A stretch of 43,885 bases of DNA, taken from the NCBI GenBank assembly GCA_913774715.1, contig CAJYHS010000152.1, forward strand, positions 1 to 43,885, given 5' to 3'. Below, one piece after another: positions 651 to 21,265 of the stretch. Position 1 is the first letter of the stretch, and the number at the start of each line of letters is the position of its first letter. The DNA is from an uncultured Siphonobacter sp. GTDB lineage: Bacteria > Bacteroidota > Bacteroidia > Cytophagales > Spirosomataceae. Under the pieces are notes generated by a model. The model did no database searches, had not been told where the DNA came from, and saw nothing but the letters and a program-made list of their open reading frames with translations. The position numbers and the translations under genes were made by a program.

Positions 651-790
651 GGTTTGTAAGTAATTGATTCATAATTGTTTGTGTAGAAGTAGTTGCAATT
701 TTGTAATTTTTTTAAACGTTCTTCCTTCTTCTTTTCCTTTCTTTACGGCCCTTCAAACGCATGTTTGAAGCTAAGCCTACGTGAAAATTT

Positions 791-2116
791 ATGACAGAAG
801 AGCAGGTCCTACAACTGGCTCCTGATGCCGCCTCGCTAAAAGCGGGAAAGGCTTTAGCCGTCGAAAACAAATGGGTTACCCTAGCCTATAACTCCCGGGT
901 GCTTTGGGGAGAAGTGCAGGGAAGTGGCAAGGATCCCTATCGAACGCAAGTTGACTTACAACAGACGGCTTTCAAATGTAGCTGTCCAAGTCGAAAATTT
1001 CCCTGCAAGCACGGACTCGGTTTATTGATTCTCTTTGCCAAATCCGCTCCCGCTTTTCAAAACTCGGAAAATGAACCCACCTGGGTGAGTGAATGGGTGG
1101 ATAAACGCCAGACCAAAGCCGAAAAAGCCGCTGAGCCCGCCAAAGAAGTAAATCCCGAACAAAAGGAAAAAGATCGCCTCAAACGCCAGCAGCAGCGTTA
1201 TCAGAAAGTAGAGGCCGGGGTAGGAGAATTGAGCCAATGGCTGCGGGATCTGGTACGGACGGGTACTTTGAACGTCCCCGAAAAAGGATACCGCTATTTT
1301 GAGCAAACGGCTGCCCGCATGGTTGATGCTCAGGCTACGGGCCTGGCTAATGGGGTAAAAGCCTTTAACGCCATCGCTTATACAAGTCCGGATTGGCAAA
1401 GTCAGGTACTCAAACAGTGCAGTCAATTATACCTTTGGACTGAAGCCTTTAGAAACCTGCCGGAATTATCGCCTGAGCTTCAGGAAGACGTAAAAAACGC
1501 CATCGGCTGGGGACGATCGGCCAAGGACTTAGGCCCGCAAGCCGAATGCATTACCGACGACTGGCTGGTACTGGGCCGCATGAGTCGGGAAGAAGACCGC
1601 ATTACCGTGCAGCAAAACTGGCTGTATGGCTATAGCTCGGGCCGCATAGCTCTGGTTCTCAACTTTTCCTATCAGAATGCGGGCGTTGAAACTCCGCTAG
1701 TGCCAGGCCGTATCTCTAAGGCTACGCTACAGTTTTACCCTTCCGCCTTTCCTTTCCGAGCCCTTGTTAAGGAGCATACGGGCTATGAGAATAGGTATCC
1801 CGAAGCCAAGGCTTTTCAGGATTTCACTCAGGCTGATACGTTTCTGCGACAAATTTGGCAGCAGCAGCCCTGGGCTGATGAACTTCCTTTGTGGGTGGAG
1901 CAGCTCGTGTTAATCAAAGCTGAAAGGGAGTGGTTGCTTTGCGATAATCAACGTCAGGTGATGCCCCTTGATCCGGCTTTTGGAGAAATGCAAGTCTTTG
2001 AGTTGCTAGCCTTGAGTGGCGGTCAGCCCATGCAGGTATGCATCCTTCACCGGGAAGGTTACGTATATCCCCTAGGACTTCAACTTGGTAATAGCTATCA
2101 ACTATTAGCCGTTTAA
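791..2116 (+). CDS. SWIM zinc-finger protein
   Basis: A 441-residue protein with a SWIM zinc finger near the N-terminus: CxCx6CxH with C63, C65, C72 and H74 (KCSCPSRKFPCKHGLGLL). SWIM domains bind zinc and mediate DNA or protein contacts. Residues about 110-150 are Lys/Glu/Gln-rich and probably a charged helical linker. The rest has no motif I recognise. It is the first gene of a same-strand cluster and its stop lies 4 bases before the DUF5691 gene, so the two are probably co-transcribed. E. coli YehQ is a SWIM protein in a comparable AAA/VWA neighbourhood. The molecular role is unknown. Confidence 0.88.
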   Translation: MTEEQVLQLAPDAASLKAGKALAVENKWVTLAYNSRVLWGEVQGSGKDPYRTQVDLQQTAFKCSCPSRKFPCKHGLGLLILFAKSAPAFQNSENEPTWVSEWVDKRQTKAEKAAEPAKEVNPEQKEKDRLKRQQQRYQKVEAGVGELSQWLRDLVRTGTLNVPEKGYRYFEQTAARMVDAQATGLANGVKAFNAIAYTSPDWQSQVLKQCSQLYLWTEAFRNLPELSPELQEDVKNAIGWGRSAKDLGPQAECITDDWLVLGRMSREEDRITVQQNWLYGYSSGRIALVLNFSYQNAGVETPLVPGRISKATLQFYPSAFPFRALVKEHTGYENRYPEAKAFQDFTQADTFLRQIWQQQPWADELPLWVEQLVLIKAEREWLLCDNQRQVMPLDPAFGEMQVFELLALSGGQPMQVCILHREGYVYPLGLQLGNSYQLLAV

Positions 2117-2120
2117 ACCT

Positions 2121-3632
2121 ATGAATACCTGGAATGAATTAGTGCAGGTAGCGTTGCTGGGAACGGAAAAAAGTAATTTTTCTCCCGAGAGTTTACCTCA
2201 GCCCGTTCAAACGTTATTGGCCAAGGCCGACCGGCAGGATCGGGAAGGCTTTTTTCTGACGGCAGCAGCTCTGACGTATCAATACGAGCGGTCGGGGAAA
2301 AAGCGGGCGGTGATTGACTTACCAGCCCTAACCCCAGCAGAACAGGAAAGCCGATCCGAAGCTCCGCAAGAGGCCATTAAGTTACTGAAAACACTTCTGG
2401 ATCAGCTGCCCTTGAACGCTACGTTACTGAGCCTTTATTTACAAAAGCTTCAGGAAAAAGGCTGGATTATTCCTAGTGCTTATTTAGTGCGGCTACTTAA
2501 TGTCAATGATGCTCAGGTTCAACAATTCCTGCTTCCCGTTTTAGGCAAGCGGGGCGATTGGTTACGCTCGTTCCATTTCCCCTGGCAACGGGACGCCGAA
2601 ACAGACTGGGAAAAAAGCTGGCAGGAGGGAAAAGTAGCCGAGCGAAAGAAGGCTCTGTATGCTTTTAGAGAGCAAAATCCCACTCTGGCTCGCCAGCGAC
2701 TGGAAGAAAGCTGGAGTGAACTCTCGGCCCGCGAAAGAAAAGAGTTACTGGAAGTGTTATTGCTGAATCTTTCCAACGATGACGAGGCCTTCTTAAGAGC
2801 TGCTCAGCAGGAATTAAAAGGTCATAAACCTTTAACTCAGGAAATTCGACAGCTTATTTTTCGCTTGTTAACCCTTTTACCCACCGGGGACGAGCAGCTT
2901 TTTTTGCAGCAAAATCTCCCCACGTACATTATTCGGGAAAAGAAACTACTGGGATTGATTTCTACGCCTAAACTGGTTCTGCCCGAAGGCGAAGACACCT
3001 TTTTCTCCCTGCCACGCTTTGCTCAGGACTGGGGCTTTTATGGCCAAAATCCAGACTCTTACCAATACCAGAGCTTAAGTGACTACTGGTTCTGGGAAGC
3101 GGTAGCTTTGACTAATCCCCAAATCTGGCGTGAAGCCTTAAAAACAGACTGGGCGGGCGTGGTGAAATTCTTTACCATCGAAAACGCCAAAGCCGACCGC
3201 TCGGCGGCTCGCTACAAAGCTTTATTGCTGGCTTCAGTCCGTTTCAATATACCTGAACTCTTCGTAGAAGCCTATCAGAAAGGCGTTTCTTTTACCGGAG
3301 CTACTACCTTTTCACTGCAGGATTACCAATTGATTTTTCAACGTATCCCTTTCCGGCAGTTATATCTCCAAAAAAATGAGCTGTTGCAGGGCTATTGGTC
3401 GGCGGAGCTGAGTCGACACATTTTTCAGGAACTACTTGAACTCGTGAAAAGCTCGCATGTCTATGTAGATTTTGCCCGGCAGGCCAGTGAGTACTGGTAC
3501 GAGTTTTCGGAGGCAGAAATAGATAGCTTATTACCTGCCGATACTCCTTCGTATTACCGGTCCGGTGAAGAAAAACTAGCCGCTCAACTCAAAGAAATCC
3601 TAAGCCTTCGCCGCTGGATTCGGGCTTTATAA
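2121..3632 (+). CDS. DUF5691 family protein
   Basis: A 503-residue soluble protein. The N-terminal sequence (WNELVQVALLGTEKS) matches my memory of DUF5691. No catalytic motif is visible. The composition, rich in Leu, Glu, Gln and Arg with repeated amphipathic stretches, suggests an all-helical, possibly HEAT-like scaffold; that is inference. It follows the SWIM gene by 4 bases and precedes the AAA+ gene by 103 bases. DUF5691 genes recur beside SWIM, AAA+, DUF5682 and VWA genes in several phyla, which suggests a shared complex. Function unknown. Confidence 0.8.
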   Translation: MNTWNELVQVALLGTEKSNFSPESLPQPVQTLLAKADRQDREGFFLTAAALTYQYERSGKKRAVIDLPALTPAEQESRSEAPQEAIKLLKTLLDQLPLNATLLSLYLQKLQEKGWIIPSAYLVRLLNVNDAQVQQFLLPVLGKRGDWLRSFHFPWQRDAETDWEKSWQEGKVAERKKALYAFREQNPTLARQRLEESWSELSARERKELLEVLLLNLSNDDEAFLRAAQQELKGHKPLTQEIRQLIFRLLTLLPTGDEQLFLQQNLPTYIIREKKLLGLISTPKLVLPEGEDTFFSLPRFAQDWGFYGQNPDSYQYQSLSDYWFWEAVALTNPQIWREALKTDWAGVVKFFTIENAKADRSAARYKALLLASVRFNIPELFVEAYQKGVSFTGATTFSLQDYQLIFQRIPFRQLYLQKNELLQGYWSAELSRHIFQELLELVKSSHVYVDFARQASEYWYEFSEAEIDSLLPADTPSYYRSGEEKLAAQLKEILSLRRWIRAL

Positions 3633-3735
3633 GGAGTTTTTAGTTGTTGGTTGATAGTAAACGCTTTACGATCCAGCAATGGATTATCTAATCATTACAA
3701 GAACGTAATTCATTCTAACCTACTAATATTTTACC

Positions 3736-4815
3736 ATGAACGCTTTACGCCAACACGCCGAAGAGCAATTTGCCCAGGAATTAGAAGAACTTCAAAAGCA
3801 GGATAATGGTCAACGCCCCCCCAACTGGATTCTTACGCCTCAGTCGGTGGTAACTTACTTAATGGGAGGTACGCTGAAAAATGGATTTGAGGTAAGCCCC
3901 AAATACATTGGCAGTCGTCGGCTGATGGAAATTGCCGTGGCAACCCTGACTACTGACCGGGCTTTATTACTCTACGGGTTACCGGGAACGGCCAAGTCCT
4001 GGGTTGCTGAACATTTGGCCGCTGCCGTTTCGGGGAACTCCACTTTACTCATTCAGGGAACTGCTGGAACGGGCGAAGAGGCCATTCGCTACGGCTGGAA
4101 TTACGCCCGCCTGCTTTCCGAAGGTCCTTCCGAAAACGCTTTAGTGGTTACGCCGATGATGCGGGCGATGAAAGACGGAAAAATTGCCCGGATTGAGGAG
4201 TTAACCCGGATTTCCGCCGATGTTCAGGATACGCTCATTACCATTCTGTCTGAGAAAACGCTTCCCGTTCCCGAGCTTAATACCGAAGTGCAGGCCACGA
4301 AAGGCTTTAACGTCATTGCTACGGCCAACAACCGCGATAAAGGGGTTAACGAGTTATCCAGTGCCTTAAAACGCCGTTTTAATACCGTGATTCTGCCCGT
4401 GCCCGAAAGCATGAATGAAGAGGTCGACATTGTGCAACGCCGGGTAAGTAGCCTTTCAAAAGCCTTAGAGTTACCCGCAGAACTACCCAAGCTAACCGAA
4501 GTGCAGCGACTGGTTACCATCTTCCGCGAGCTGCGTTCGGGGGTGAGTGAAGATGGAAAAACTAAACTGAAAAGTCCGTCGGGGACGATGAGTACCGCCG
4601 AAGCCATTTCGGTGATGAACAACGGCATGGCTCTGGCCGCTCACTTTGGCGATGGTCGGGTCACGGCTGAAGATATGGCGGCGGGTTTGATTGGAGCCGT
4701 CGTAAAAGATCCCGTTCAGGATAAAGTCGTCTGGAACGAATACCTGGAAACGGTCCTCAAAACCCGCGAAAATTACCGTGACATTTACCGGGCCTGTAAG
4801 GAATTAAGCCTATGA
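3736..4815 (+). CDS. MoxR-type AAA+ ATPase of the SWIM/DUF5682/VWA cluster
   Basis: A 359-residue AAA+ ATPase. Walker A is GLPGTAKS at 81-88. The Walker B region reads IARIEELTR (150-158), with Glu-Glu where most MoxR proteins have Asp-Glu. Sensor 1 is in IATANNRD (about 194-201) and the arginine finger is probably in LKRRFN (211-216). MoxR ATPases remodel proteins or insert metals together with a VWA partner (RavA/ViaA, NorQ/NorD, CoxD/CoxE); the partner here is probably the protein at 7035-8213. The stop codon overlaps the start of the next gene (ATGA, 4812-4815), so translation is likely coupled. It is comparable in context to E. coli YehL. Substrate unknown. Confidence 0.93.
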   Translation: MNALRQHAEEQFAQELEELQKQDNGQRPPNWILTPQSVVTYLMGGTLKNGFEVSPKYIGSRRLMEIAVATLTTDRALLLYGLPGTAKSWVAEHLAAAVSGNSTLLIQGTAGTGEEAIRYGWNYARLLSEGPSENALVVTPMMRAMKDGKIARIEELTRISADVQDTLITILSEKTLPVPELNTEVQATKGFNVIATANNRDKGVNELSSALKRRFNTVILPVPESMNEEVDIVQRRVSSLSKALELPAELPKLTEVQRLVTIFRELRSGVSEDGKTKLKSPSGTMSTAEAISVMNNGMALAAHFGDGRVTAEDMAAGLIGAVVKDPVQDKVVWNEYLETVLKTRENYRDIYRACKELSL

Positions 4816-7031
4816 GGATTCATTTGCTTGGCATTCGCCACCACGGGGTGGGTTCGGCCCGGCAGGTGCAGCAGCGGCTGGCCGAGCTACAGCCCGATCT
4901 GATTCTGGTGGAAGGTCCGCCGGAACTCACCGAACTTTTACACTGGATGGCTCATAAGGAGCTAAGGCCTCCCGTGGCTATTCTGGCTTACGATGCGGAC
5001 GATCCGCAGAAAGCCGTTTTTTATCCCTTTGCCGAATTCTCACCCGAGTGGGTAGCCGTTCGGTATGCTCAGGAGCAGTCCATCGAAGTTCGCATGACGG
5101 ATATGCCTTTAATGCATTCGCTAGCTACCAAAGCGGTTGAAAAGCTTGATAAACTCGAAAATGCCGAACAGCCCCAGCGGCGGGTTTTTCCTCTGGAAGA
5201 GATCGCCCGGCTTGCAGGCTATGAAAATTACCACGACTGGTGGGAAGAACGCTTTGAGCAGGACACGAGCCAGGGGGAGAGCGAAGCGTATTTTCAGGCC
5301 GTCGGGTTAACCATGCAGGCCAGCCGTGAAGCGGAAGAAGGCATCGACCGAACCAACGATGAAATTCGTGAGGCATTCATGCGGCAATCGCTTCGCGAAG
5401 CTCAGAAAGAGGGCTTCGTTAATATCGCTGTTATCTGCGGAGCTTGGCACGTACCAGCGTTGGGCGATCTGAAGACGACGAAAAAAGAAGATGCTCAGCA
5501 GATCAAAGGTCTGGCTAAAACCAAAGTCCGGTTGACCTGGATTCCCTGGACGAATTCCCGCATGAGTTGGTGGAGCGGTTATGGAGCCGGGATTCACTCG
5601 CCGGGCTGGTACGAACACCGCTGGAAAAACCCGGATGATCTTGGCGAGTGGTGGTTAACCCAAGTGGCCCGTTTGCTTCGAAAGCAAAAAGTAGACGTTT
5701 CTACGGCTCATGTGATTGAAGCGTACCGACTGGCCGAGTCACTGGCCATTCTTCGCAATTTACCCAGAGCGGGGCTACGCGAATTAAATGAAGCCACGCA
5801 GTCGGTCATGTGCATGGGTGAAGGTATCCTGATGCGACTCGTGCAGGAGGAGCTTATTATGGCTCACCGCATGGGAAGTGTGCCCCAGGAGTTACCTAAA
5901 CTGCCGATTCAAACCGACTTTGAAACCAAAGCAAAGAAGCTTCGGCTCGACATTCGAGAGGATCGCAAATACCTGGAGCTGGACCTTCGCAAAGAACTCG
6001 ATCTGAGTCGAAGTATTTTCCTGCACCGGTTACGGGTATTAGACATTACCTGGGCAGATTTGCTTCGAACGTCCAGCAAGGGAACCTTTAAGGAAGGCTG
6101 GCAACTGAGCTGGCGACCCGAGTCGATTCTCGAATTGATTGAAAAAGCCATTTGGGGCAATCGGATTGAAGACGCCGCTACGCAGTTTTTGCTCGATCAA
6201 AGCAAGAAAAGCACCTCCATTACTGAATTAGCTGCCAAACTTGAAGCGGCCATCCCCGCCGAGTTATTCGGAGTATTAGACGGATTAATTACCCGCATCA
6301 GTGATTTGGCTACGGTTTCCGCCGATATGCAGGAGCTGATGGCGGCCTTAACGCCCCTGGTGAGTGTAAGTCGGTACGGGAACGTTCGTAAAACGGATTT
6401 CTCGGCCTTGATGCAGGTCGTTGAAAGTTTATTAACCCGCATCTGTATCGGCCTGCCTACGGCCTGTTACGGGCTGGACGATGACAATGCCCGAAAAATG
6501 TTTACGCTGATTCGTCAGGTAGATGAATCGGTGTTGTTACTCGAGATCGAGCCGCTTCTACTGGAATGGCAAAATACGCTGAAAGTATTAGCTGATAAAG
6601 AGCAGATGCCGCCGCTGTTAAAGGGCGGTAGCACCCGTTTACTATTTGATCGCCGCCTGCTTTCGGAAGAAACCATGGCTCAGCTCTTTCAGCAGGCGTT
6701 GTCCAAAGGCTATGAACCCGCTTATTCGGCGGCCTGGCTGGAAGGTTTCTTAAAAGGAAGTGGACTCATCTTGCTTTACGATCCTATTCTCTGGAAGTTA
6801 CTCTACAGCTGGGTAGCTGACTTGGATAGCGAGGTCTTCATCGAGCAACTTCCCGTCTTACGGCGAACCTTTGCCGAATTTGAAGCCGCTGAACGCCGAA
6901 AGCTCGGAGAGAAAGCTCGGAGCTTACCTTCATTACCCACTCACAGGGTAAGCCCGACGACGGACGATTTTGACTTTGAACAAGCCGAAGCGAGTCTACC
7001 CACGATGGCGGCACTTTTAGGACTTACGTAA
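4812..7031 (+). CDS. DUF5682 protein with TraB/TIKI-like N-terminal motifs
   Basis: A 739-residue protein. The first ~220 residues contain two GX2H motifs, GIRH (7-10) and GAWH (210-213), and a conserved-looking Glu in LILVEGPPE (E34), with an Arg-containing helix before the second motif. This arrangement is the hallmark of the TraB/TIKI/EreA/GumN-like superfamily, some of which are metal-dependent hydrolases. The rest is helical and of unknown role. I recognise the whole as DUF5682, the family I associate with E. coli YehM. It overlaps the AAA+ gene by 4 bases and is followed after 3 bases by the VWA gene. Family fairly sure; catalytic activity is inference. Confidence 0.85.
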   Translation: MRIHLLGIRHHGVGSARQVQQRLAELQPDLILVEGPPELTELLHWMAHKELRPPVAILAYDADDPQKAVFYPFAEFSPEWVAVRYAQEQSIEVRMTDMPLMHSLATKAVEKLDKLENAEQPQRRVFPLEEIARLAGYENYHDWWEERFEQDTSQGESEAYFQAVGLTMQASREAEEGIDRTNDEIREAFMRQSLREAQKEGFVNIAVICGAWHVPALGDLKTTKKEDAQQIKGLAKTKVRLTWIPWTNSRMSWWSGYGAGIHSPGWYEHRWKNPDDLGEWWLTQVARLLRKQKVDVSTAHVIEAYRLAESLAILRNLPRAGLRELNEATQSVMCMGEGILMRLVQEELIMAHRMGSVPQELPKLPIQTDFETKAKKLRLDIREDRKYLELDLRKELDLSRSIFLHRLRVLDITWADLLRTSSKGTFKEGWQLSWRPESILELIEKAIWGNRIEDAATQFLLDQSKKSTSITELAAKLEAAIPAELFGVLDGLITRISDLATVSADMQELMAALTPLVSVSRYGNVRKTDFSALMQVVESLLTRICIGLPTACYGLDDDNARKMFTLIRQVDESVLLLEIEPLLLEWQNTLKVLADKEQMPPLLKGGSTRLLFDRRLLSEETMAQLFQQALSKGYEPAYSAAWLEGFLKGSGLILLYDPILWKLLYSWVADLDSEVFIEQLPVLRRTFAEFEAAERRKLGEKARSLPSLPTHRVSPTTDDFDFEQAEASLPTMAALLGLT

Positions 7032-7034
7032 GCC

Positions 7035-8213
7035 ATGGAAAAACAAGAAGAAACGCTCAAACGCTGGCGGCTCTTACTCGGAGGCCAGAACGCGGACGGA
7101 ACGGGCGTTAGCCTAAACGACCAGGAAAAGCAGATTGATGAAGCTTTATCGGCTTTGTATGACTTTGAGCAGCGAGGTAAATTTGAATACGGTCCGAATC
7201 AGAAGGGAGGTTCGGGGGCTTCTCAGCCTAACGTAGCCCGCTGGCTGGGGGATATTCGCCAGTATTTTCCTGCTTCCGTGGTGCAGGTCATGCAGCAGGA
7301 TGCTCTCCAAAAGCCGGAACTACAGAAAAAACTGTTGTTCGAACCCGAGATTCTCGAGCAGGCCACGCCCGATGTGCATCTGGTGGCTACCTTGATGGAA
7401 CTGGGAAAACTCATTCCTTCCAAAACCAAAGACACGGCCCGGCGGGTAGTGCAGAAAGTAGTGGACGAATTACTGGAAAAGCTTTCCCAGAATACCATTC
7501 AGGCCATTTCTGGAGCCCTAAACCGGGGCGTACGTAACCGTCGTCCCCGGCTCAATGAAATGGACTGGTCTTCGACGATTCGTAAAAACCTTCGTCATTA
7601 TCAGGCCGATTATAAAACCATTATTCCCGAAGAGCTCATTGGTTTTGGACGCAAAACCCGTCGCAGTTTAAAAGATGTGGTATTGTGTCTCGATCAATCG
7701 GGCTCGATGGGAAGTTCAGTGGTATACTCGGGCATTTTTGGCTCGGTTATGGCCTCCATTCCTTCGGTAAAAACGCGAATGGTGGTTTTTGATACCGAAG
7801 TCGTGGATTTAACGGAAGACTTGAATGATCCGGTGGATTTACTCTTCGGGGTACAATTGGGAGGAGGAACCGATATTGACCGGGCTCTGGGCTATTGCCA
7901 GACGGTTATTCAAAAGCCTAACGATACGATTCTGGTATTGATTACCGATTTATACGAAGGCGGCAATCAGCAGCAAATGCGGCAACGCATGCAGGAGATT
8001 GTAGCTTCGGGCGTACAGTTGATTTGTTTGCTAGCTTTGAACGATGAAGGAGCTCCGTATTATGACGCGAAAAACGCGAAGTTTTTAGGAGATTTGGGCG
8101 TTCCGGTGTTTGCCTGCACCCCCGATCTTTTTCCCGAAGTAATGGCTGCCGCTATTAACAAGCAGGATTTAAAGCAGTGGGCGGGCGATCGGGACATTGC
8201 GCTGAAGGGATAA
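7035..8213 (+). CDS. VWA domain protein, probable partner of the MoxR ATPase
   Basis: A 392-residue protein with a C-terminal von Willebrand A domain and a complete metal-ion-dependent adhesion site: DxSxS at D220, S222 and S224 (LDQSGSMGSS), Thr279 in GGGTD, and Asp305 in ITDLYEGG. The N-terminal ~200 residues are helical and charged, as in CoxE/ViaA-like partners of MoxR ATPases. It starts 3 bases after the DUF5682 stop. E. coli YehP is the likely counterpart. Such proteins usually present a substrate or target to the ATPase ring. No signal peptide is visible, so it is probably cytoplasmic. Confidence 0.93.
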   Translation: MEKQEETLKRWRLLLGGQNADGTGVSLNDQEKQIDEALSALYDFEQRGKFEYGPNQKGGSGASQPNVARWLGDIRQYFPASVVQVMQQDALQKPELQKKLLFEPEILEQATPDVHLVATLMELGKLIPSKTKDTARRVVQKVVDELLEKLSQNTIQAISGALNRGVRNRRPRLNEMDWSSTIRKNLRHYQADYKTIIPEELIGFGRKTRRSLKDVVLCLDQSGSMGSSVVYSGIFGSVMASIPSVKTRMVVFDTEVVDLTEDLNDPVDLLFGVQLGGGTDIDRALGYCQTVIQKPNDTILVLITDLYEGGNQQQMRQRMQEIVASGVQLICLLALNDEGAPYYDAKNAKFLGDLGVPVFACTPDLFPEVMAAAINKQDLKQWAGDRDIALKG

Positions 8214-8231: not shown

Positions 8232-9080
8232 ATGCAACTCATTGCTGATAGTGGTTCCACCAAAACCGACTGGCGGATGCTGGCCGGTGACGAAAGTGTG
8301 GGACAAGCCCGTACAGTTGGATTTAATCCTTTTTACCAAAGCTCCGAGCAAATCGCTCATGAATTAAAGCTGAGTTTGAAGCCCAAAGTAAAGGAGCCGG
8401 TAAGGGCTATTTATTTCTACGGAGCGGGCGTAACGGGAGCCGAGAAGGCTCAGGTAATTATCGACGGCTTAAAGGACGTTTTCCCGGAGGCTGAACACAT
8501 CGAAGCTCATTCTGATATGCTGGGGGCGGCCCGGGCCTTGTGTGGAAGGGAAAAGGGCATTGCCTGCATTTTAGGAACCGGCTCGAATACCTGTCAGGTG
8601 GATAACGGTGAAATCACTCACAAGGTAGATACGTTGGGCTTTTGGCTGGGGGACGAAGGAAGCGGTGGCTATCTGGGAAAAACGCTTGTACAGGCCTATC
8701 TCCATAAGGAGTTACCCGTAGCCTTACGCGAAAAATTTGAAAAGCGTTACCCCAACCTAAACCGGGATGTGGTGCTGGAAAATGCCTATCAAAAGCCCTT
8801 TCCCAATCGCTATTTTGCTGGATTTTCGAAGTTTCTCTTCGATAATAGAACCGATGGAACAGCCTACCAGATTGCCGCAAATGCGTTTAGTTTATTTTTT
8901 GAAAAGTACGTCGAGAAATACCCTGATTATCTAAACTACCGGGTGAGTCTGACGGGCTCAGTGGCGTTTTACTACTCAGATATTATTCGAAGAGTGGCCC
9001 GGGAAAAAGGCGTTACAATCGGGGTTATCATGGAAACCCCCATTGCGGGCTTAACCCTCTACCATCAGGGTAAATCATAA
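8232..9080 (+). CDS. N-acetylglucosamine kinase-like BadF/BadG-family ATPase
   Basis: A 282-residue member of the BadF/BadG/BcrA/BcrD ATPase family (ASKHA fold). The phosphate-1 motif is ADSGSTKTDW (5-14); a second phosphate-binding motif is ILGTGSNTC (about residue 117), followed by GFWLGDEGSGGYLG, typical of the GlcNAc-kinase branch. Expected reaction: ATP-dependent phosphorylation of an amino sugar, probably in cell-wall or chitin sugar salvage. It starts 18 bases after the VWA gene and may be the last gene of that operon, though a functional link is not evident. A strong terminator follows directly. Confidence 0.88.
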   Translation: MQLIADSGSTKTDWRMLAGDESVGQARTVGFNPFYQSSEQIAHELKLSLKPKVKEPVRAIYFYGAGVTGAEKAQVIIDGLKDVFPEAEHIEAHSDMLGAARALCGREKGIACILGTGSNTCQVDNGEITHKVDTLGFWLGDEGSGGYLGKTLVQAYLHKELPVALREKFEKRYPNLNRDVVLENAYQKPFPNRYFAGFSKFLFDNRTDGTAYQIAANAFSLFFEKYVEKYPDYLNYRVSLTGSVAFYYSDIIRRVAREKGVTIGVIMETPIAGLTLYHQGKS

Positions 9081-14675: not shown

Positions 14676-16127
14676 TTAAAAAGCTTCGACTTCTGTTCCT
14701 GCCAAAGGAATGGTAATCGTAAAACTCGTTCCCCGGCCCACTTCCGATTCTACGTCGATGCGGGCTTTGTGCGATTGGATGATGCTCAGCGTGGCGGCCA
14801 GACCTAAACCAATGCCATTGTTTTTAGAAGTGAAGTAAGGTTCAAACAACCGGCCCAGATTTTCAGCGGGAATGCCTGAGCCATTATCTTCTACGGTAAT
14901 ATAACAATATTCGCCCGCCACGTGATTGTTTACATGCAGGATCCCTTCTTCGGGCTGCATGGCTTCAATGGCGTTAACGATGATATTGAGAACGGCAATT
15001 TTGACTTTTTCTTTATCTACCTTAATAAAGCAGTCTTCACCGTAATCTTTTTGAAGCGTAATGTTTTTAAGTTGAATCCGGTCGAGTGCTAATGCCAGGG
15101 TTTCATCCAAAAGCTGATGTACGGAAACTTCAGATAAGTTAATCTCAGCCTGACGGGAGGAATTCAATAACTCTGAAATCAAATCATTAATACGCTGAGA
15201 GTTGCGTTTAATAATTTGAGGATACATGAGCAAATCCTCTTCCTGCATACCCGTTAAAAGTTCATCGGCCGACAAATTTATATTCGTCAGAGGATTACGA
15301 ACTTCATGAGCCAGGGTGCGAACGAGTCGGGCAGTCGCGGCTAATTTTTCAGTTAATAACGTATCGCGTTCGGCTTTTTTGCGAGCGGTGATGTCGTGAA
15401 CAATGCCCTGAATTTGCTTGTTGCCAAAGCCGTCGATTTGTAAGCTGGCATAAATGGTGCAGTAGCGTTTGTCACCCTGACGGGTTTGCAGAGCTACTTC
15501 AAAATCCTCGATCTCACCAAACTGCTCAAGCATCGTAATAAAGAGGGCATAGCGTTCGGTGCTTTCAAAGATTTCTGCTACCCGCTTCTGAGTGAATTCT
15601 TCGGGTGTGTAGCCTAAGAGTTCGCTTCCATTCGGATTGACGTAAAGAAATTCTCCAGAGGTATTGGCCAGGAAAATCATTTCCCGGAGTTGATTGAACA
15701 AACTACGGTATTGGCGTTCACTGTCACGAAGTTTGTTCAGCGTTAGGGTTCTCTCGAGCGTATAACGAATGCAGCGTTCGAGTTTTTCTGCATTCAAATC
15801 GCTCTTGACTAAATAATCTACCGCTCCACGACGCGTAGCTTCTTCATCTACTTTTCGATCACCCCGCCCCGTAAGTAAGACCATAGGAGTCCGCAGGCCA
15901 ATGGCGTTGGCTTCTTCGATAAGGTCTAGCCCCGTTTTCGCTCCTAAAAAGAAATCGACAAAAGCGATGTCGGGCTGTTGTTCTTTAAGCTTAGCCAAAG
16001 CCGTAGAGTAACCATTGGCCCAGTCCAGGGTAAATTGATTTCCCGGAATATCCCGCAGCGAGTCGCTGGTGAGCAGATAATCATCCTCATCGTCATCTAC
16101 AATGAGAATCTTGGTAAAGTTATTCAT
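14676..16127 (-). CDS. Receiver-PAS hybrid histidine kinase
   Basis: A 483-residue cytoplasmic protein. Order: N-terminal receiver domain (ILIVDDDEDDYLL acidic patch, phosphoacceptor in DIAFVDFFLG), PAS domain (LREMIFLANTSGEFLYVN onward), HisKA with the H-box LAHEVRNPLTNINL, then HATPase_c with N-box NAIEAMQPE, G1 VEDNGSGIP and G2 GIGLGLAAT. No membrane helix. The receiver-first order means an upstream phosphodonor may control the kinase. I chose ATG 16127 because GGGAGGA lies just before it; an in-frame ATG at 16154 would add nine residues. The Rcp1-like regulator gene lies upstream on the same strand with a 43-base gap. Confidence 0.9.
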   Translation of the reverse strand: MNNFTKILIVDDDEDDYLLTSDSLRDIPGNQFTLDWANGYSTALAKLKEQQPDIAFVDFFLGAKTGLDLIEEANAIGLRTPMVLLTGRGDRKVDEEATRRGAVDYLVKSDLNAEKLERCIRYTLERTLTLNKLRDSERQYRSLFNQLREMIFLANTSGEFLYVNPNGSELLGYTPEEFTQKRVAEIFESTERYALFITMLEQFGEIEDFEVALQTRQGDKRYCTIYASLQIDGFGNKQIQGIVHDITARKKAERDTLLTEKLAATARLVRTLAHEVRNPLTNINLSADELLTGMQEEDLLMYPQIIKRNSQRINDLISELLNSSRQAEINLSEVSVHQLLDETLALALDRIQLKNITLQKDYGEDCFIKVDKEKVKIAVLNIIVNAIEAMQPEEGILHVNNHVAGEYCYITVEDNGSGIPAENLGRLFEPYFTSKNNGIGLGLAATLSIIQSHKARIDVESEVGRGTSFTITIPLAGTEVEAF

Positions 16128-16170
16128 ACGTCCTCCCTGCTCGCCAGAGAGCATTTAATGGTGAAATATA

Positions 16171-16632
16171 TTATTCAGGAAGCACGGGAATCTGAACAAT
16201 TTCAAACCAGTACTGTCCTAAAGACTTGGTTACTTCGATAAAATCCCGGAAGGTAACGGGCTTGGTAATAAAGCAATTAACTCCCAAGTCATAACTTCTT
16301 AAAATATCTTCTTCTGCGTGTGAAGTAGTAAGAATGATCACGGGTATGTTGCAAAGCTCTGGATGCGATTTGATTTGCTCCAAGGCCTCACGTCCATCCA
16401 TTCGGGGCATGTTTAAATCCAGCAAAATCAGCCCAGGTTTGGGGCTTAGCTTGGGATCTTCGTATGTTCCTCGTCGCAACAGGTAATCAAGCAATTCAAC
16501 GCCGTCTTCTACGAAATGAATTTCATTGAGTATAAAATTTTCCTGAAGGGCCTGCTGAGTCATTTCCCGGTCTTCTTCATCGTCATCGGCGATGAGTAGT
16601 ACGACGGGTTTTTTCTTACTAATCGTTTCCAT
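16171..16632 (-). CDS. Single-domain response regulator (Rcp1/CheY-like)
   Basis: A 153-residue stand-alone receiver with no output domain. Acidic pocket D16-D18 (IADDDEED), phosphoacceptor D72 (LILLDLNMPRMDG), Thr in VIILTTSH and Lys in CFITKPV. The extended loop between beta-3 and alpha-3 (GTYEDPKLSPKPG) is typical of the Rcp1 group, which act as phosphorelay shuttles for phytochrome-like and PAS kinases. It lies between two kinases of the same strand and probably connects them. Confidence 0.92.
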   Translation of the reverse strand: METISKKKPVVLLIADDDEEDREMTQQALQENFILNEIHFVEDGVELLDYLLRRGTYEDPKLSPKPGLILLDLNMPRMDGREALEQIKSHPELCNIPVIILTTSHAEEDILRSYDLGVNCFITKPVTFRDFIEVTKSLGQYWFEIVQIPVLPE

Positions 16633-16680
16633 AACACTTTTATTCTAAAGAAGAATACGTGTCGTCACACTATGATCTTC

Positions 16681-17838
16681 CTATGAAACAAGATTCTGTT
16701 GCTGCTCGGGAAGTAAGAGTACGAAGGTAGTGCCCTGCCCGCTCTCGCTGGTGGCGTAAATCGTTCCACCGTGATTTTCTACGATGCGTTTGCAAATCGC
16801 CAAACCCATTCCTGCCCCTTCGTATTCTGAGCGGCCATGTAATCGCTTGAAAAGTGTAAAAATCTGTTCCGAATACTTGGCTTCGAAGCCTATGCCGTTA
16901 TCAGCAATAGTAATCTTGTGGAAACTTTGACCCATTGGTAATCGGGCTTCCATGATTTCCTGCCGTGAAGCAGTAGTGGCGTTAATGCTAATAGCTAAGG
17001 GACGCTCTGGGCTATTAAATTTCAGGGCATTACCAATCAGATTTTGCAGGAGCTGGTGCATCTGGGTGGGTAAAGCCATAATAGTGGGCAGGGAGCCAAT
17101 AGTTACGGTGGCCTGAGCTTCAGAAATGCGAAGTTCAAAATCGCTCAACACGTTTTTTATTACTTCCTGAAGCGAAACAGGAGTAAAGGGCTCTTCGGGA
17201 CGTGAAGCTCTGGAGTAACTCAGAAGGCTGTCAATGAGCAATTTCATGCGTTGAGTAGCTCCCAGCATTCGAGTCAGGTAATGAGCTCCCTCTTCTCCTA
17301 AATTCTCCTTGTATTTACTATGGATTCGCTCCCCGAAAGAAGTAATCTTGCGAAGAGGTTCCTGTAAGTCATGTGAAGCGATATAGGCAAATTGTTCCAG
17401 CTCAAAATTGGACTGGTCGAGTGCCTGCATTTTATTTTCCAGTTCTTGCTGATACTGAACTTTGGACGTTAAATCAGCAGTGATGCCTACCAAATGCAAA
17501 GCTCCCGTCAAGGGATCAGTCTTTACTTGTCCCTGAGAAAGTAATACCAGTTCTTTGCCGTTATAGTCCGTTACCCGGTATTGGGCAGTAAAGGAAGATT
17601 TACCTCGAATCGCTTGATCAATTTGATCAAAGGTAGCCTGGCGATCCGGTTCTAGAATTTGCTGAGTGTACCAATTAAAACTTAGTACATCTACCGCATG
17701 AGGGGGGATGTTAAATACATCATACAAGCCTTTAGACCATTGGATAGCCTGTTGACCTATTTCCCAATCGAACGTACCAAATTGTAATAAAGATTCAGCT
17801 TCCCGAAGGTAAGAAGTACTATCATAAAGCTGAGACAT
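16681..17838 (-). CDS. PAS histidine kinase
   Basis: A 385-residue cytoplasmic kinase. One PAS/PAC domain (about 10-130), a short coiled coil, HisKA with His156 in AYIASHDLQEPLRKI, and HATPase_c with GNALKF, ADNGIGFE and GAGMGLAICKR. The ASHDLQEPLRKI type is common to bacteriophytochrome-like kinases that pair with Rcp1 regulators such as the one 48 bases downstream. The frame stays open to 17889, but that part overlaps a hairpin upstream, so I chose ATG 17838 (MSQLYDST). The ligand of the PAS domain is unknown. Confidence 0.9.
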   Translation of the reverse strand: MSQLYDSTSYLREAESLLQFGTFDWEIGQQAIQWSKGLYDVFNIPPHAVDVLSFNWYTQQILEPDRQATFDQIDQAIRGKSSFTAQYRVTDYNGKELVLLSQGQVKTDPLTGALHLVGITADLTSKVQYQQELENKMQALDQSNFELEQFAYIASHDLQEPLRKITSFGERIHSKYKENLGEEGAHYLTRMLGATQRMKLLIDSLLSYSRASRPEEPFTPVSLQEVIKNVLSDFELRISEAQATVTIGSLPTIMALPTQMHQLLQNLIGNALKFNSPERPLAISINATTASRQEIMEARLPMGQSFHKITIADNGIGFEAKYSEQIFTLFKRLHGRSEYEGAGMGLAICKRIVENHGGTIYATSESGQGTTFVLLLPEQQQNLVS

Positions 17839-17867
17839 AATGAAAAGGGTAGAAGTTAAAAAATAGG

Positions 17868-17910
17868 TTACGGCCCAGCTTAGCCTCAAAAAAACTAGAC
17901 TGGGCCGTAA
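17868..17910 (-). terminator. Weak terminator-like hairpin between sigma-54 activator and PAS kinase
   Basis: Arms 17868-17878 and 17900-17910 (11 bp, perfect, TTACGGCCCAG) with a 21-base loop. On the minus strand it is followed by TATTTTTTAA. It could partly separate the kinase from the upstream activator gene; the long loop makes it uncertain. Confidence 0.5.
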
Positions 17911-17914
17911 ACAC

Positions 17915-19417
17915 TTAAGATAAATGGTAATTCTTCATTTTGTTATAAAGCGTTTTCCGGTCAATACCCAGTAATTGAGCGGCCTTGCTTTTATTGAAGT
18001 TTACCTGTTTAAGCGTCTTTAAAATCATATCGTACTCCGCCTCGAGTGCCGCCGAACGCAGGTTAGGCTTTTCACCTTTGTTTGCATCGGGAGTAGCAAT
18101 GGCGATGGGAGGTTCCGTATAGTAAGGCTGAGCGGGAATCACCGGCATTACCTGAGGCTGCTCGGGAATATACGATGGCATAGGAGCCGCGTTATCCATG
18201 GATTGCAGCTTATTAAAGTGAACGATTTCAAAGGGTAGGTCGCGGGCCTGAATGGCCTCACTATCCGTCAAAAGCGTGGCCCGCTTAATAACATTTCGCA
18301 TTTCGCGTAAGTTACCCGGCCATTCGTAACGCATGAATAAATCCACAACGTCCTCGGCAAAACCACGAACCTGTTTGCCAAGCTCGCCATTGGTAGCCTG
18401 AAGGAAATAATCAGCAAAAGTCATGACATCAGCAGGCCGTTCACGCAAGGGGGGGACGTCAATACTGAACTCATTAAAACGATAGTAAAGGTCTTCGCGG
18501 AATTTTCCTTTTTTAGCGGATTCGATGAGTCGTTCGTTGGACGCTACAATGATGCGAACATCAATCGGAGTTTCTTTGGTACCTCCTAAACGGCGAAGCT
18601 TTCGCTCCTGAACTACCCGAAGCAGTGAAACCTGAACGTCATAGGGGAGGTTACCTACTTCATCAAGAAATAACGTTCCTCCGTGCGCCTGTTCAAAATG
18701 ACCAATCTTCTGGTTCAGAGCACCCGTAAAAGCTCCTTTTTCGTGCCCAAAGAGTTCTGAACCGGCTAGTTCCTTAGAAATAGCACCGCAGTCCATGGCC
18801 ACAAAGGGACCCGTTGCTCGCTTGCTACGTTTATGGATTTCCTGAGCAACGGCTTCTTTTCCTGAGCCGCTTTCTCCGTAAATAATGACACTGTAATTGG
18901 TGGGAGCCACTAAATCTACCTGACGATAGAGGTACTTGGATTCGGCTCCGTTACCGAAAATGTATTGTTCAGAACCAGAGGAGCGTTTAGGCGTTGCTAC
19001 CGCTGGAACGTTGGAATCGCCACTGGCCGTAGAAGGCGGAGCTAGGGTGCCCGCCGCACTTTGCTCAAGAGCCTTGCGGATGGTTACTAAAATTTCATCG
19101 GGAAACAGGGGTTTGGTTACGTAATCGTAGGCCCCTTGTTTCATGACATTAACGGCAATTTTAATGTCTGAGTAACCCGTGATGATAATCACCGGAACTC
19201 TGGGAAACTGTTCTTTAATCCGAACTAATAATTCCCCCCCATCCATATCGCCGAGGCGAAAGTCAGTCATGACCAGATCGGGTTTAAAATCAGTCAGGGT
19301 TTCCAGACCAGAGGTTCCATTATGAGCAATGGCGACCTCGAAGCCGTTACGCCCCAAGAATCGCCGTAGAAGCAGACAAATGTCTGTATCGTCGTCAATT
19401 ACTAATATTCTCTGCAT
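17915..19417 (-). CDS. NtrC-type sigma-54-dependent response regulator
   Basis: A 500-residue activator. Receiver domain 1-120 with D8-D10 and phosphoacceptor D52; AAA+ domain (about 150-390) with Walker A GESGSGKE, the sigma-54 contact loop GAFTGA and Walker B TLFLDEVGNL; Fis-type HTH at the C-terminus (KSKAAQLLGIDRKTLYNKMK). All the parts needed to open sigma-54 promoters are present. A Pro-rich linker of ~50 residues (PSYIPEQPQVMPVIPAQP) precedes the HTH. It lies directly downstream of rpoN on the same strand, an informative pairing. Target promoters unknown; see the motif before the ytxH-like gene. Confidence 0.95.
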   Translation of the reverse strand: MQRILVIDDDTDICLLLRRFLGRNGFEVAIAHNGTSGLETLTDFKPDLVMTDFRLGDMDGGELLVRIKEQFPRVPVIIITGYSDIKIAVNVMKQGAYDYVTKPLFPDEILVTIRKALEQSAAGTLAPPSTASGDSNVPAVATPKRSSGSEQYIFGNGAESKYLYRQVDLVAPTNYSVIIYGESGSGKEAVAQEIHKRSKRATGPFVAMDCGAISKELAGSELFGHEKGAFTGALNQKIGHFEQAHGGTLFLDEVGNLPYDVQVSLLRVVQERKLRRLGGTKETPIDVRIIVASNERLIESAKKGKFREDLYYRFNEFSIDVPPLRERPADVMTFADYFLQATNGELGKQVRGFAEDVVDLFMRYEWPGNLREMRNVIKRATLLTDSEAIQARDLPFEIVHFNKLQSMDNAAPMPSYIPEQPQVMPVIPAQPYYTEPPIAIATPDANKGEKPNLRSAALEAEYDMILKTLKQVNFNKSKAAQLLGIDRKTLYNKMKNYHLS

Positions 19418-19441
19418 AAAAACCTGCCATTGCCCTCACTT

Positions 19442-19475
19442 AAAAAGAAGTCCTCCGTTACGTAAAGAAGGACTT
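19442..19475 (-). terminator. Terminator or attenuator between rpoN and the sigma-54 activator
   Basis: Arms 19448-19454 and 19469-19475 (AAGTCCT/AGGACTT, 7 bp) followed on the minus strand by CTTTTTAAG. It lies in the 101-base gap downstream of rpoN, so read-through may set the level of the activator. Confidence 0.6.
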
Positions 19476-19518
19476 ATGTGTTTATCGATAATGTTGTTGC
19501 TTCTTTAAAATCAGTTAC

Positions 19519-20982
19519 TTATACGCCGCGTCTAAACTGAGCGGACTGAATACCAAGTTGATCACGGTACTTAGCCACGGTACGTCGTGAGATCAGGTAA
19601 CCTTGAGTTGCCAGTAAACGCATCAAATCAAAGTCATTGAAAGGATTACGTTTGTCCTCGCAGGAAATGTGTTCAACCAGCGCCTGCTGAATGGCTTTAT
19701 TGGATACTTCCGTGCCGTTCTCGGTACGAATGCCTTCCGTAAATAGGTCTTTCAGGTGAATTAATCCGAAAGGCGTTTGTGCGTATTTACCGGAAGTTAC
19801 CCGTGAAATGGTAGAAATATCCATACCAATGCAGTCAGCTACATCCTTAAGAATCATGGGTTTGAGTAAACGTACATCACCTGATTCGAAGTAGGGGCGT
19901 TGGAGTTGTACTAAAACCCGCATCGCCCGGTGCATGGTGTTTTCCCGCTGGCGAATAGCATCTACTAACCACTGAGCCGACTGTAACTTATTTTTAAGAT
20001 AAGTGGCAGCACCACGTTCGCGGCTTGTATCCACTAACCCAATAATCGAACTATTGACGCGAATATCGGGCCAGTTGCCGCGATTTAATGCTACTTCAAT
20101 GCGACCATAATCATCATAATGAAGTACGTAATCGGGTATAATGTTTCGTTTAATGACCATCGAGTCATTGTTGCCACCAACGATAGGCTTAGGATTGAGT
20201 TTACTAATCTCAGTTAGTGCTGAGCGTAATTCCTCCTCATCCATTTCCAGATTTTTGCAGATCTTTTCAAAGTTACGATTGGAAAGTTCTGTAAAACAGT
20301 TGGTAACGATTTCAACGGCTCGAAGTGAAGCAGGAGTGGCCCGGCGGCTCTCTAACTGGAGCAGTAAACATTCGCGTAAATCCCGGGCTGCCAAACCAGC
20401 CGGTTCTAATTCATCATGAATGGCCAAGATGACTTCTTCTACTTCCGAACCATCCACAAAAATTCCATGCCCGAACGAATAATCGTCGGCTAATGAATCT
20501 GCATCGCTGCGAAGAAAACCGTCATCATCAAGCGAGTCAATCAGAAATTCGGCAATGCCCCGCTGACGATCTTTTAGGTTCATCCATCGAACCTGCTCTT
20601 TAATGGCTTCTCGCCAGGTTTCCTGCTCAACGATGGGGGTTGAATAGAGATCGTCCTCAGCGTTTGGATCCTGACTTAAACGTGTTTTGTATTCAGGAAT
20701 ATCGTCATTTGAAAATTCGTCCCAATCCCGATAGTCTTCAACATTAGCGGGCGTTTCGTAATCACTGGCAGAATCGTCGCGGCTATCAGCGGCTTCCATC
20801 TCCTCCGAAGAATCGTTTTCATTCACTCCTTCTTCCAAAAGAGGATTCTCTTCCAGCTCGTTACGAAGGTGTTGCTCGAGCTCAAGGGTTGAAAGCTGGA
20901 GGAAATTTAAGAACTGTATTTGCTGAGGGGCAACCCGTAGCGTTTGTTTCTGACTTTGCGATAAGTTAACGGAAGTGCTCAT
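19519..20982 (-). CDS. rpoN: RNA polymerase sigma-54 factor
   Basis: A 487-residue sigma-54. Region I is a Gln/Leu-rich activator-interacting domain (SQSQKQTLRVAPQQIQFLNF, then LQLSTLELEQHL), region II is acidic (about 55-110), followed by the core-binding domain and the HTH. The RpoN box is intact near the C-terminus (SRRTVAKYRDQLGI, from about residue 465), which reads the -24 element. Length is normal. It is the first gene of a probable minus-strand series rpoN, activator, PAS kinase, receiver, receiver-PAS kinase. Confidence 0.97.
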   Translation of the reverse strand: MSTSVNLSQSQKQTLRVAPQQIQFLNFLQLSTLELEQHLRNELEENPLLEEGVNENDSSEEMEAADSRDDSASDYETPANVEDYRDWDEFSNDDIPEYKTRLSQDPNAEDDLYSTPIVEQETWREAIKEQVRWMNLKDRQRGIAEFLIDSLDDDGFLRSDADSLADDYSFGHGIFVDGSEVEEVILAIHDELEPAGLAARDLRECLLLQLESRRATPASLRAVEIVTNCFTELSNRNFEKICKNLEMDEEELRSALTEISKLNPKPIVGGNNDSMVIKRNIIPDYVLHYDDYGRIEVALNRGNWPDIRVNSSIIGLVDTSRERGAATYLKNKLQSAQWLVDAIRQRENTMHRAMRVLVQLQRPYFESGDVRLLKPMILKDVADCIGMDISTISRVTSGKYAQTPFGLIHLKDLFTEGIRTENGTEVSNKAIQQALVEHISCEDKRNPFNDFDLMRLLATQGYLISRRTVAKYRDQLGIQSAQFRRGV

Positions 20983-21265
20983 ATGTGGCTTGGATCATTA
21001 AGGCGGTAACTGAAGTACTTTACCTTATCATAAAGTCAAGCCATGTGCTTCATTTTAAAAGTTATGTTGCATATTCGGCCGGGAATTAGGAGCCTTAGCA
21101 TACTTTTTTTGTTGATAATCAATGAGTTTGTTTAAGGATTTAAATTTGGTGATGCACTAAACTTTCCAAATGCGGCTTTTTTCTAAAAGCTGGTGGCTTC
21201 AATGCTCCTCCTCCTATTTCCCCATGTTGTAGAAAATTTACCACTAGCTTTTGTATTTTTAATGG
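20983..21265. other. Divergent intergenic region rpoN / CHASE3 kinase
   Basis: About 280 bases between two divergent genes. I see no coding sequence or strong hairpin. TAGCTTTTG at 21245-21253 resembles a -7 element with one extra T and might serve the kinase gene. Confidence 0.4.

Follow-up and report, generated by a model that had tools for sequence, protein, structure and literature searches.

The locus described here raises two questions: do five adjacent genes, coding for a SWIM zinc-finger protein, a DUF5691 protein, a MoxR AAA+ ATPase, a DUF5682 protein and a CoxE-like VWA protein, work as one unit, and, if so, on what do they act? The genes occupy positions 791-8213 of a stretch of 43,885 nucleotides (contig CAJYHS010000152.1 of assembly GCA_913774715.1, from an uncultured Siphonobacter sp. 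of the Bacteroidota), the whole of which is referred to below as the window. In the open reading frame (ORF) listing of the window all five frames lie on the forward strand and begin with ATG; 4 bases separate SWIM from DUF5691 and 103 bases DUF5691 from MoxR, the MoxR and DUF5682 genes overlap by 4 bases, and 3 bases lie between DUF5682 and VWA. All five proteins exceed the curated cut-offs in a Pfam scan (Table 1), and an NCBIfam scan of the window proteins gave nothing close to a curated cut-off. An earlier sequence-only reading had seen a single functional unit in this order, strand and spacing, with coordinates that the ORF listing and the Pfam matches bear out to the base. Conserved order, gene fusions and co-inheritance even of unlinked genes now indicate that the five genes very probably form one functional unit or machine.

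A profile built from nine DUF5682 proteins retrieved at least 576 relatives from GTDB species genomes, of which the best 80 loci were kept, a selection that favours close relatives. Adding the window and 14 further loci (plasmids, E. coli and other genomes) gave 95 sequences, which were searched in all frames with iterated profiles of the five cluster proteins and of the E. coli DUF4132 protein. Enough flanking sequence (at least 5.5 kb before and at least 1.5 kb after DUF5682) was available for 55 of the 80 loci, the remaining 25 being excluded from the count of completeness, and 50 of these 55 hold all five genes. In every one of the 65 complete loci (59 of the 80, the window, and L003, L004, L021, L022 and L027) the order is SWIM-DUF5691-MoxR-DUF5682-VWA, with an additional DUF4132 gene in nine of them (after VWA in seven, between DUF5682 and VWA in two). 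A chance arrangement can be dismissed because of these two counts, 50/55 and 65/65, and a neighbourhood survey of the kind called for by the sequence-only reading thus finds the genes with MoxR and VWA, not usually apart from them. Median gaps between successive genes across loci are 2, 11, 10 and -1 bases (n=49-68). By titles and tree labels, the set extends over 11 phylum-level groups: Bacteroidota, Cyanobacteriota, Pseudomonadota, Chloroflexota, Thermomicrobiota, Planctomycetota, Actinomycetota, Acidobacteriota, Melainabacteria, Verrucomicrobiota and Deinococcota.

Some irregularities within the arrays were also recorded. In a Thermomicrobiales metagenome-assembled genome (MAG; L086:6905-10001) about 3.1 kb of extra sequence separates MoxR from DUF5682, and five other loci have 0.5-1.2 kb in the same place. 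Two relatives from the window's own genus carry a gene broken into two frames, DUF5691 in one (genome G359, L237:6639-8149, where the frames overlap) and DUF5682 in the other (genome G406, L242:3719-6095), in each case by a frameshift or an assembly error.

The strongest result for the five-gene unit is co-inheritance without linkage. Among 198 Bacteroidota genomes DUF5682 occurs in seven, the SWIM protein in the same seven, and DUF5691 also in the same seven (six above the Pfam cut-off, the match in G162 being below it but beside MoxR). A weak DUF5691 match below the cut-off was found in one genome without DUF5682 (G014), and the 15 kb around it hold no match to any of the five profiles. In two of the seven, G037 and G178, the DUF5682, SWIM and DUF5691 genes lie on three separate contigs. 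The second survey covered 146 genomes of the phylum of the Nostocaceae genome G201, with DUF5682 and DUF5691 judged by Pfam cut-off and MoxR and VWA by thresholds of our own (E 1e-30 and 1e-20, respectively). DUF5682 is above cut-off in eight of them, and DUF5691, SWIM and this type of MoxR (E <= 1e-30) are found in the same eight, VWA (E <= 1e-20) in seven of the eight, missing in G250 only. Below the cut-offs, DUF5691 is weakly matched in seven further cyanobacterial genomes and DUF5682 in one (G266). All five genes are scattered over a single contig in G214 (5.00 Mb) and G278 (4.87 Mb), which look like close relatives and count as one lineage, and lie on five contigs in G330. Both survey centres, G000 and G201, carry the set by choice; excluding them, the counts are 6/197 and 7/145. 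Gene order could be preserved by block transfer; for members kept after separation a common function is the best explanation, and the pattern suggests mutual dependence of the parts.

Two gene fusions seem to give the best hints as to which of the proteins may be in direct contact. SWIM and DUF5691 are joined in one frame in an Isosphaeraceae MAG (L061), and DUF5682 and VWA form one protein of 1257 residues on a Streptomyces plasmid (L006). SWIM and DUF5691 can therefore be considered a second sub-assembly, and DUF5682 is the closest candidate for the protein on which the motor described below acts; whether as client or as partner of that motor, the fusion favours contact of DUF5682 with VWA.

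The MoxR and VWA proteins are likely a motor pair, as had been proposed. The Walker A motif of the MoxR protein is intact and its ATPase residues are conserved in the alignment of relatives. It is far nearer E. coli YehL (223 bits, 38% identity) than RavA (21.6 bits, E 0.039), and its neighbours include DUF5682, VWA and SWIM proteins as in E. coli, which places it in the YehL subfamily of MoxR, a group whose definition rests on sequence together with local gene structure (PMC3893208). In the VWA protein D220, S222 and S224, invariant in 22 VWA proteins, preserve the DxSxS start of the metal ion-dependent adhesion site (MIDAS), for which a DxSxS-T-D motif has been described and which presumably binds the target (PMC9976466). 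MoxR/VWA pairs remodel their targets, NorQD inserting metal (PMC13036017; PMC9976466): in that pair the VWA domain reaches with a finger into the MoxR ring pore, and the proposed action of the motor, a twisting and stretching of a linker, lets metal into the target (PMC13036017). The NorQ/NorD, CbbQ/CbbO and RavA/ViaA pairs resemble the window set in pairing a MoxR AAA+ protein with a VWA protein that has a MIDAS start. They differ from it in their MoxR subfamily, and the window set has three more co-inherited proteins and no recurring client operon adjoining it. We count the five-gene set among the MoxR/VWA kind, and the claim that it is one unit is well supported.

The features expected of a metal-insertion chaperone, Walker A and MIDAS start, are thus intact in the window proteins, and one alternative is that all five proteins serve the maturation of an outside metalloenzyme (e.g. 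a molybdenum or iron enzyme), much as NorQD serves nitric oxide reductase. The CoxE-like nature of the VWA protein would suit such a role, as would the insertion of metal by MoxR/VWA pairs (PMC13036017) and the fact that the yeh-type set of E. coli, described below, adjoins DUF4132 and WGR genes, a combination linked to MolR, a molybdate-related gene (PMC8533742). The nor operon, however, keeps the genes for client and chaperone together (PMC9976466), and no client metalloenzyme emerges as a specific recurring neighbour of the five genes, either among clustered flanking ORFs or among the 103 nearest flanking proteins. The commonest neighbour families are generic (in 12, 10 and 7 loci) and lie at scattered distances, and so speak against a dedicated client operon; those that hold a fixed place recur among sister species only, no Pfam family is found in more than four of the 103 proteins, and none keeps a fixed position across unrelated hosts. 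We consider an outside client rather unlikely. The MoxR/VWA pairs described in the papers cited here help other enzymes mature, whereas the five-gene set appears self-contained.

The reading we prefer is of the five gene products as a single obligate multi-protein machine, in which a YehL-type MoxR ring and a CoxE-like VWA adaptor act on DUF5682; we put its probability at roughly 0.4. The VWA protein would dock on the MoxR ring and contact DUF5682, and ATP-driven movement would load, remodel or switch on DUF5682, which would be a cytosolic two-domain enzyme with the invariant set H10-H11/E34/E79/D97/R186-E187/H213 in its N-terminal domain. If the motor works as in NorQD, its step could be to insert metal into an H/E/H site of DUF5682. 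The second sub-assembly, SWIM protein plus DUF5691 solenoid, might recruit the substrate or provide the scaffold of the complex. That DUF5682 is an enzyme, binds a metal and is loaded by the motor is what we infer. A more specific version, which we find rather doubtful, would make DUF5682 a new class of cytosolic TraB/Tiki-like enzyme, held inactive until a dedicated MoxR/VWA motor loads its metal or opens it, while the target would be chosen by SWIM and DUF5691. If true, an ATP-gated five-part hydrolase machine would be present across 11 phylum-level groups, E. coli having a sister version that has DUF4132 and lacks DUF5691.

The enzymatic part of this reading comes from the likeness of DUF5682 to the TraB/PrgY/GumN family (PF01963). 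The AlphaFold2 model of DUF5682, which is of good confidence (mean predicted local distance difference test, pLDDT, 89.4), shows an N-terminal alpha/beta domain (~1-250); the C-terminal ~490 residues are mostly helical, an addition that sets the protein apart from TraB/PrgY/GumN. Across 29 N-terminal domains, three of them of yeh type, R9-H10-H11, E34, S77-P78-E79, D97, R186-E187 and G210-x-x-H213 are invariant; the residues invariant in 15 TraB/PrgY/GumN relatives include G-T-x-H, E, R-N and G-x-x-H, so that GxxH, E, R and GAxH motifs follow one another in the same order in both. Profile alignment brings the two sets of motifs into register, 9 of 12 pairs of columns conserved in both families being identical, a number reached by none of 239 column permutations. 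The alignment score itself was reached by 1/60 and 13/239 column permutations, and the best Pfam TraB/GumN match of the N-terminal domain has an E-value of 0.038 and occurs in one of 56 members. Among solved structures, none matches DUF5682 or the TraB/GumN family by sequence at E <= 0.1. The N-terminal domain resembles TraB/GumN in its motifs, homology not being statistically established, and the reading of DUF5682 as an enzyme is plausible but unproven.

Several observations weigh against the machine as we have drawn it. An unrelated VWA control profile also gave nine identical column pairs (of 22), hhalign gives P 0.1 for the DUF5682 N-terminal domain against TraB/GumN, the HMMER TraB model scored reversed sequences above real ones, and Foldseek returned no match to the DUF5682 model at E <= 0.001; that DUF5682 binds metal is guessed from the kinds of residue it has. 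One or more members are out of view in 5 of the 55 loci with enough flank (L051, L059, L071, L078 and L104). Whole-genome searches located DUF5691 elsewhere in two of these genomes (L051, L078) and did not find it anywhere in two others (L059, L071), and at L104 SWIM alone is missing in view; among 15 incomplete-looking loci, DUF5691 is present in the genomes of 10. The co-inheritance of MoxR and VWA was surveyed in the cyanobacteria only. The zinc finger is not indispensable, its region being missing in four genomes (G214, G278, G330 and G162), where the SWIM-family match begins at model position 122-140 and the open frames measure 315-321 residues; for G214 and G278 the loss is confirmed by alignment.

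The proposal in the sequence-only reading that SWIM and DUF5691 give the specificity is accordingly weakened as regards SWIM by these four genomes. C63, C65, C72 and H74 are invariant in the 38 SWIM relatives aligned. DUF5691 is predicted to be an all-helical solenoid: its AlphaFold2 model (mean pLDDT 84.8) is nearly all helix with one beta hairpin, and the top Foldseek matches are mostly armadillo/importin-alpha proteins, none of them at E <= 0.001. A relationship of DUF5691 to DUF4132 was considered on the strength of an hhalign P of 8.9e-4 over 131 columns (0.08-0.41 for five other profiles) and rejected, as this signal may merely reflect shared helical repeats and BLASTP of DUF5691 against YehI gave nothing.

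The E. coli counterpart had been named correctly as yehL, yehM, yehP and yehQ, which in strain K-12 code for MoxR, DUF5682, VWA and SWIM proteins; this set has no DUF5691 gene and has yehI, coding for DUF4132, upstream. YehM (25% identity, E 1e-30) and YehP (34%, E 1e-73) are homologous to the window proteins, as is YehL, while SWIM and YehQ match over the zinc-finger stretch only (E 0.17). The gene order differs as well (MoxR-DUF5682-VWA-SWIM), and the yeh type forms a separate branch of the DUF5682 tree (support 100/100). This type, with DUF4132, was found in E. coli K-12, Allorhizobium and Streptomyces, and a profile search did not find DUF5691 in the sister-type stretches of these three; E. 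coli among the control genomes likewise gave no DUF5691 match. The window, having DUF5691 and no DUF4132 match, does not carry a yeh operon proper, and E. coli yehLMPQ is a sister version of the five-gene set. With such a set in K-12, a strain that lends itself readily to gene deletion and biochemistry, the role of YehL, the second MoxR of this strain, becomes directly testable.

In the open literature searched there is no mention of DUF5682, DUF5691 or their Pfam numbers, and two or more of yehL, yehM, yehP and yehQ appear together only in a genome-reduction announcement and a Shigella strain resource. The description of the cluster as undescribed therefore stands for the literature searched, except that a YehL subfamily of MoxR proteins, delimited in part by genomic context, has already been published (PMC3893208), and parts of the neighbourhood may have been noted before.

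The patchy distribution of the set (7/198 Bacteroidota; 8/59 relatives of the window genome, and 5/6 in its own genus, window counted) would fit a role in biological conflict, be it anti-phage defence or self-sacrifice, with SWIM and DUF5691 sensing, MoxR and VWA setting the threshold and DUF5682 as the effector. The DUF5682 tree nevertheless agrees for the most part with the phyla (14 label changes, where shuffling gives a mean of 34.3), with a few possible transfers, including two proteobacterial long branches within Bacteroidota. Phage carriage was considered and rejected, as a viral contig scan (30 pattern stretches) gave no relative. MoxR-vWA ternary systems (with VMAP and beta-propeller proteins), which also combine MoxR and VWA with further components, are predicted conflict systems (PMC7159879), and the window MoxR weakly matches bpMoxR, at 25.2 bits, under the curated cut-off of 27. 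In contrast to the variable effectors of those systems, the same five families are present in 65/65 complete loci, and PMC7159879 makes no mention of SWIM, YehL, TraB or WGR. Some nearest neighbours match models for Hhe, mads_2, mads_3, MkoA/MkoC, HEC-06 and a type IV restriction enzyme, and 34 PADLOC models were matched (E <= 1e-15) in the 103 nearest flanking proteins against 14 in 103 control proteins from carrier genomes, a tally made per model and not per protein, in which one protein can account for a dozen similar models and for which fewer taxa supplied the controls. The excess is largely redundant, 25 listed flank models having 11 distinct names (nine flank models are unlisted) and the 14 control models nine, and none of the five proteins has a strong PADLOC match of its own (the best, E 8.9e-5, being to a 33-residue stretch of IetA). 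The evidence for a defence role is weak, and we regard it as improbable. A defence island around the set was rejected, as there is no clear PADLOC excess in the flanks over the control; a small one is possible. In loci of Chitinophaga type a large protein is encoded directly 3' of the VWA gene on the opposite strand (L049:13396-18042, L066:13388-18052, L077:13388-18052), and two scanned copies of it are presumably the two members matching the PADLOC models Hhe and PDC-S37.

Lastly, the set could be a DNA-damage or stress module in which SWIM domains, and WGR domains in the sister type, touch nucleic acid and the motor clears or remodels protein on DNA. Deinococcus genes for DUF4132 and WGR proteins rise strongly on depletion of DdrO, and MolR is described as LexA-regulated (PMC8533742), but DUF4132 is present in just 9 of the 65 complete loci. 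In E. coli K-12 a LexA-like site, CTGGATAAAATTACAG, begins 25 bases 5' of the start of yehF, a WGR gene (L002:450-465), and is a lead to the SOS response at most. It comes from a loose CTG-N10-CAG pattern with 12 matches in the 21-kb stretch, where the strict CTGT-N8-ACAG has none, and it stands at yehF, upstream of the DUF4132 and yehLMPQ genes, not at yehLMPQ. We think a stress module improbable. LexA/SOS control of the operon was also looked for and rejected: six SOS-type patterns, searched from -350 to +200 of the SWIM start, matched in 7/66 loci without a shared site.

Table 1. Genes and sequence features of the five-gene cluster, in window coordinates
Feature	Position	Strand	Remarks
Intergenic stretch 5' of SWIM gene, presumed promoter region	651..790	+	without ORF of at least 90 aa
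SWIM zinc-finger protein, 441 aa	791..2116	+	Pfam SWIM PF04434, 22.3 bits (cut-off 19.6)
SWIM zinc-binding stretch CSCPSRKFPCKH, residues 63-74	977..1012	+	C63, C65, C72, H74 invariant
DUF5691 protein, 503 aa	2121..3632	+	Pfam PF18944, 169 bits
MoxR AAA+ ATPase, YehL type, 359 aa	3736..4815	+	Pfam AAA_5, 126 bits
Walker A GLPGTAKS of MoxR protein	3976..3999	+	G81, P83, G84, T85, K87 invariant in alignment
DUF5682 protein, 739 aa	4812..7031	+	Pfam PF18934, 812 bits
GIRHH motif of DUF5682, residues 7-11, just past strand 1	4830..4844	+	R9, H10, H11 invariant
E34 of DUF5682, end of strand 2	4911..4913	+	invariant; aligns with conserved E of TraB/GumN
GAWH motif of DUF5682, residues 210-213	5439..5450	+	G210, H213 invariant; aligns with TraB/GumN GAGH
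VWA (CoxE-like) protein, 392 aa	7035..8213	+	Pfam VWA_CoxE PF05762, 163 bits
MIDAS start DQSGS of VWA domain, residues 220-224	7692..7706	+	D220, S222, S224 invariant

The presumed promoter region shares the words TTTCTTTAC and ACGTGAA with four relatives from the window's own genus; no sigma-70-like site is among the sites listed there and no LexA-like site was found in it. A perfect inverted repeat, CTTCAAAC-GCAT-GTTTGAAG at 751-770, 20 bases 5' of the first start codon, was considered as an operator and rejected, being changed or absent in own-genus relatives. Upstream, the frame at 60-650 (196 residues) matches solely the final part of PepSY_TM (profile positions 177-295 of 295). Downstream, a frame on the same strand (8232-9080) begins 18 bases past the VWA stop and has a match to BadF/BcrA-type ATPases below cut-off, a family not seen among the recurring neighbour clusters printed for the relative loci; it is followed by an Rrf2 regulator on the opposite strand. 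An Rfam scan of the window gave no match. The G+C content of the cluster is 50.4%, against 45.3% in the window downstream of it, which could reflect acquisition or stronger codon constraint. Further along, positions 14676-22690 form a signalling block with three histidine kinases (two with PAS domains), a sigma-54 activator with a receiver domain, and sigma-54.

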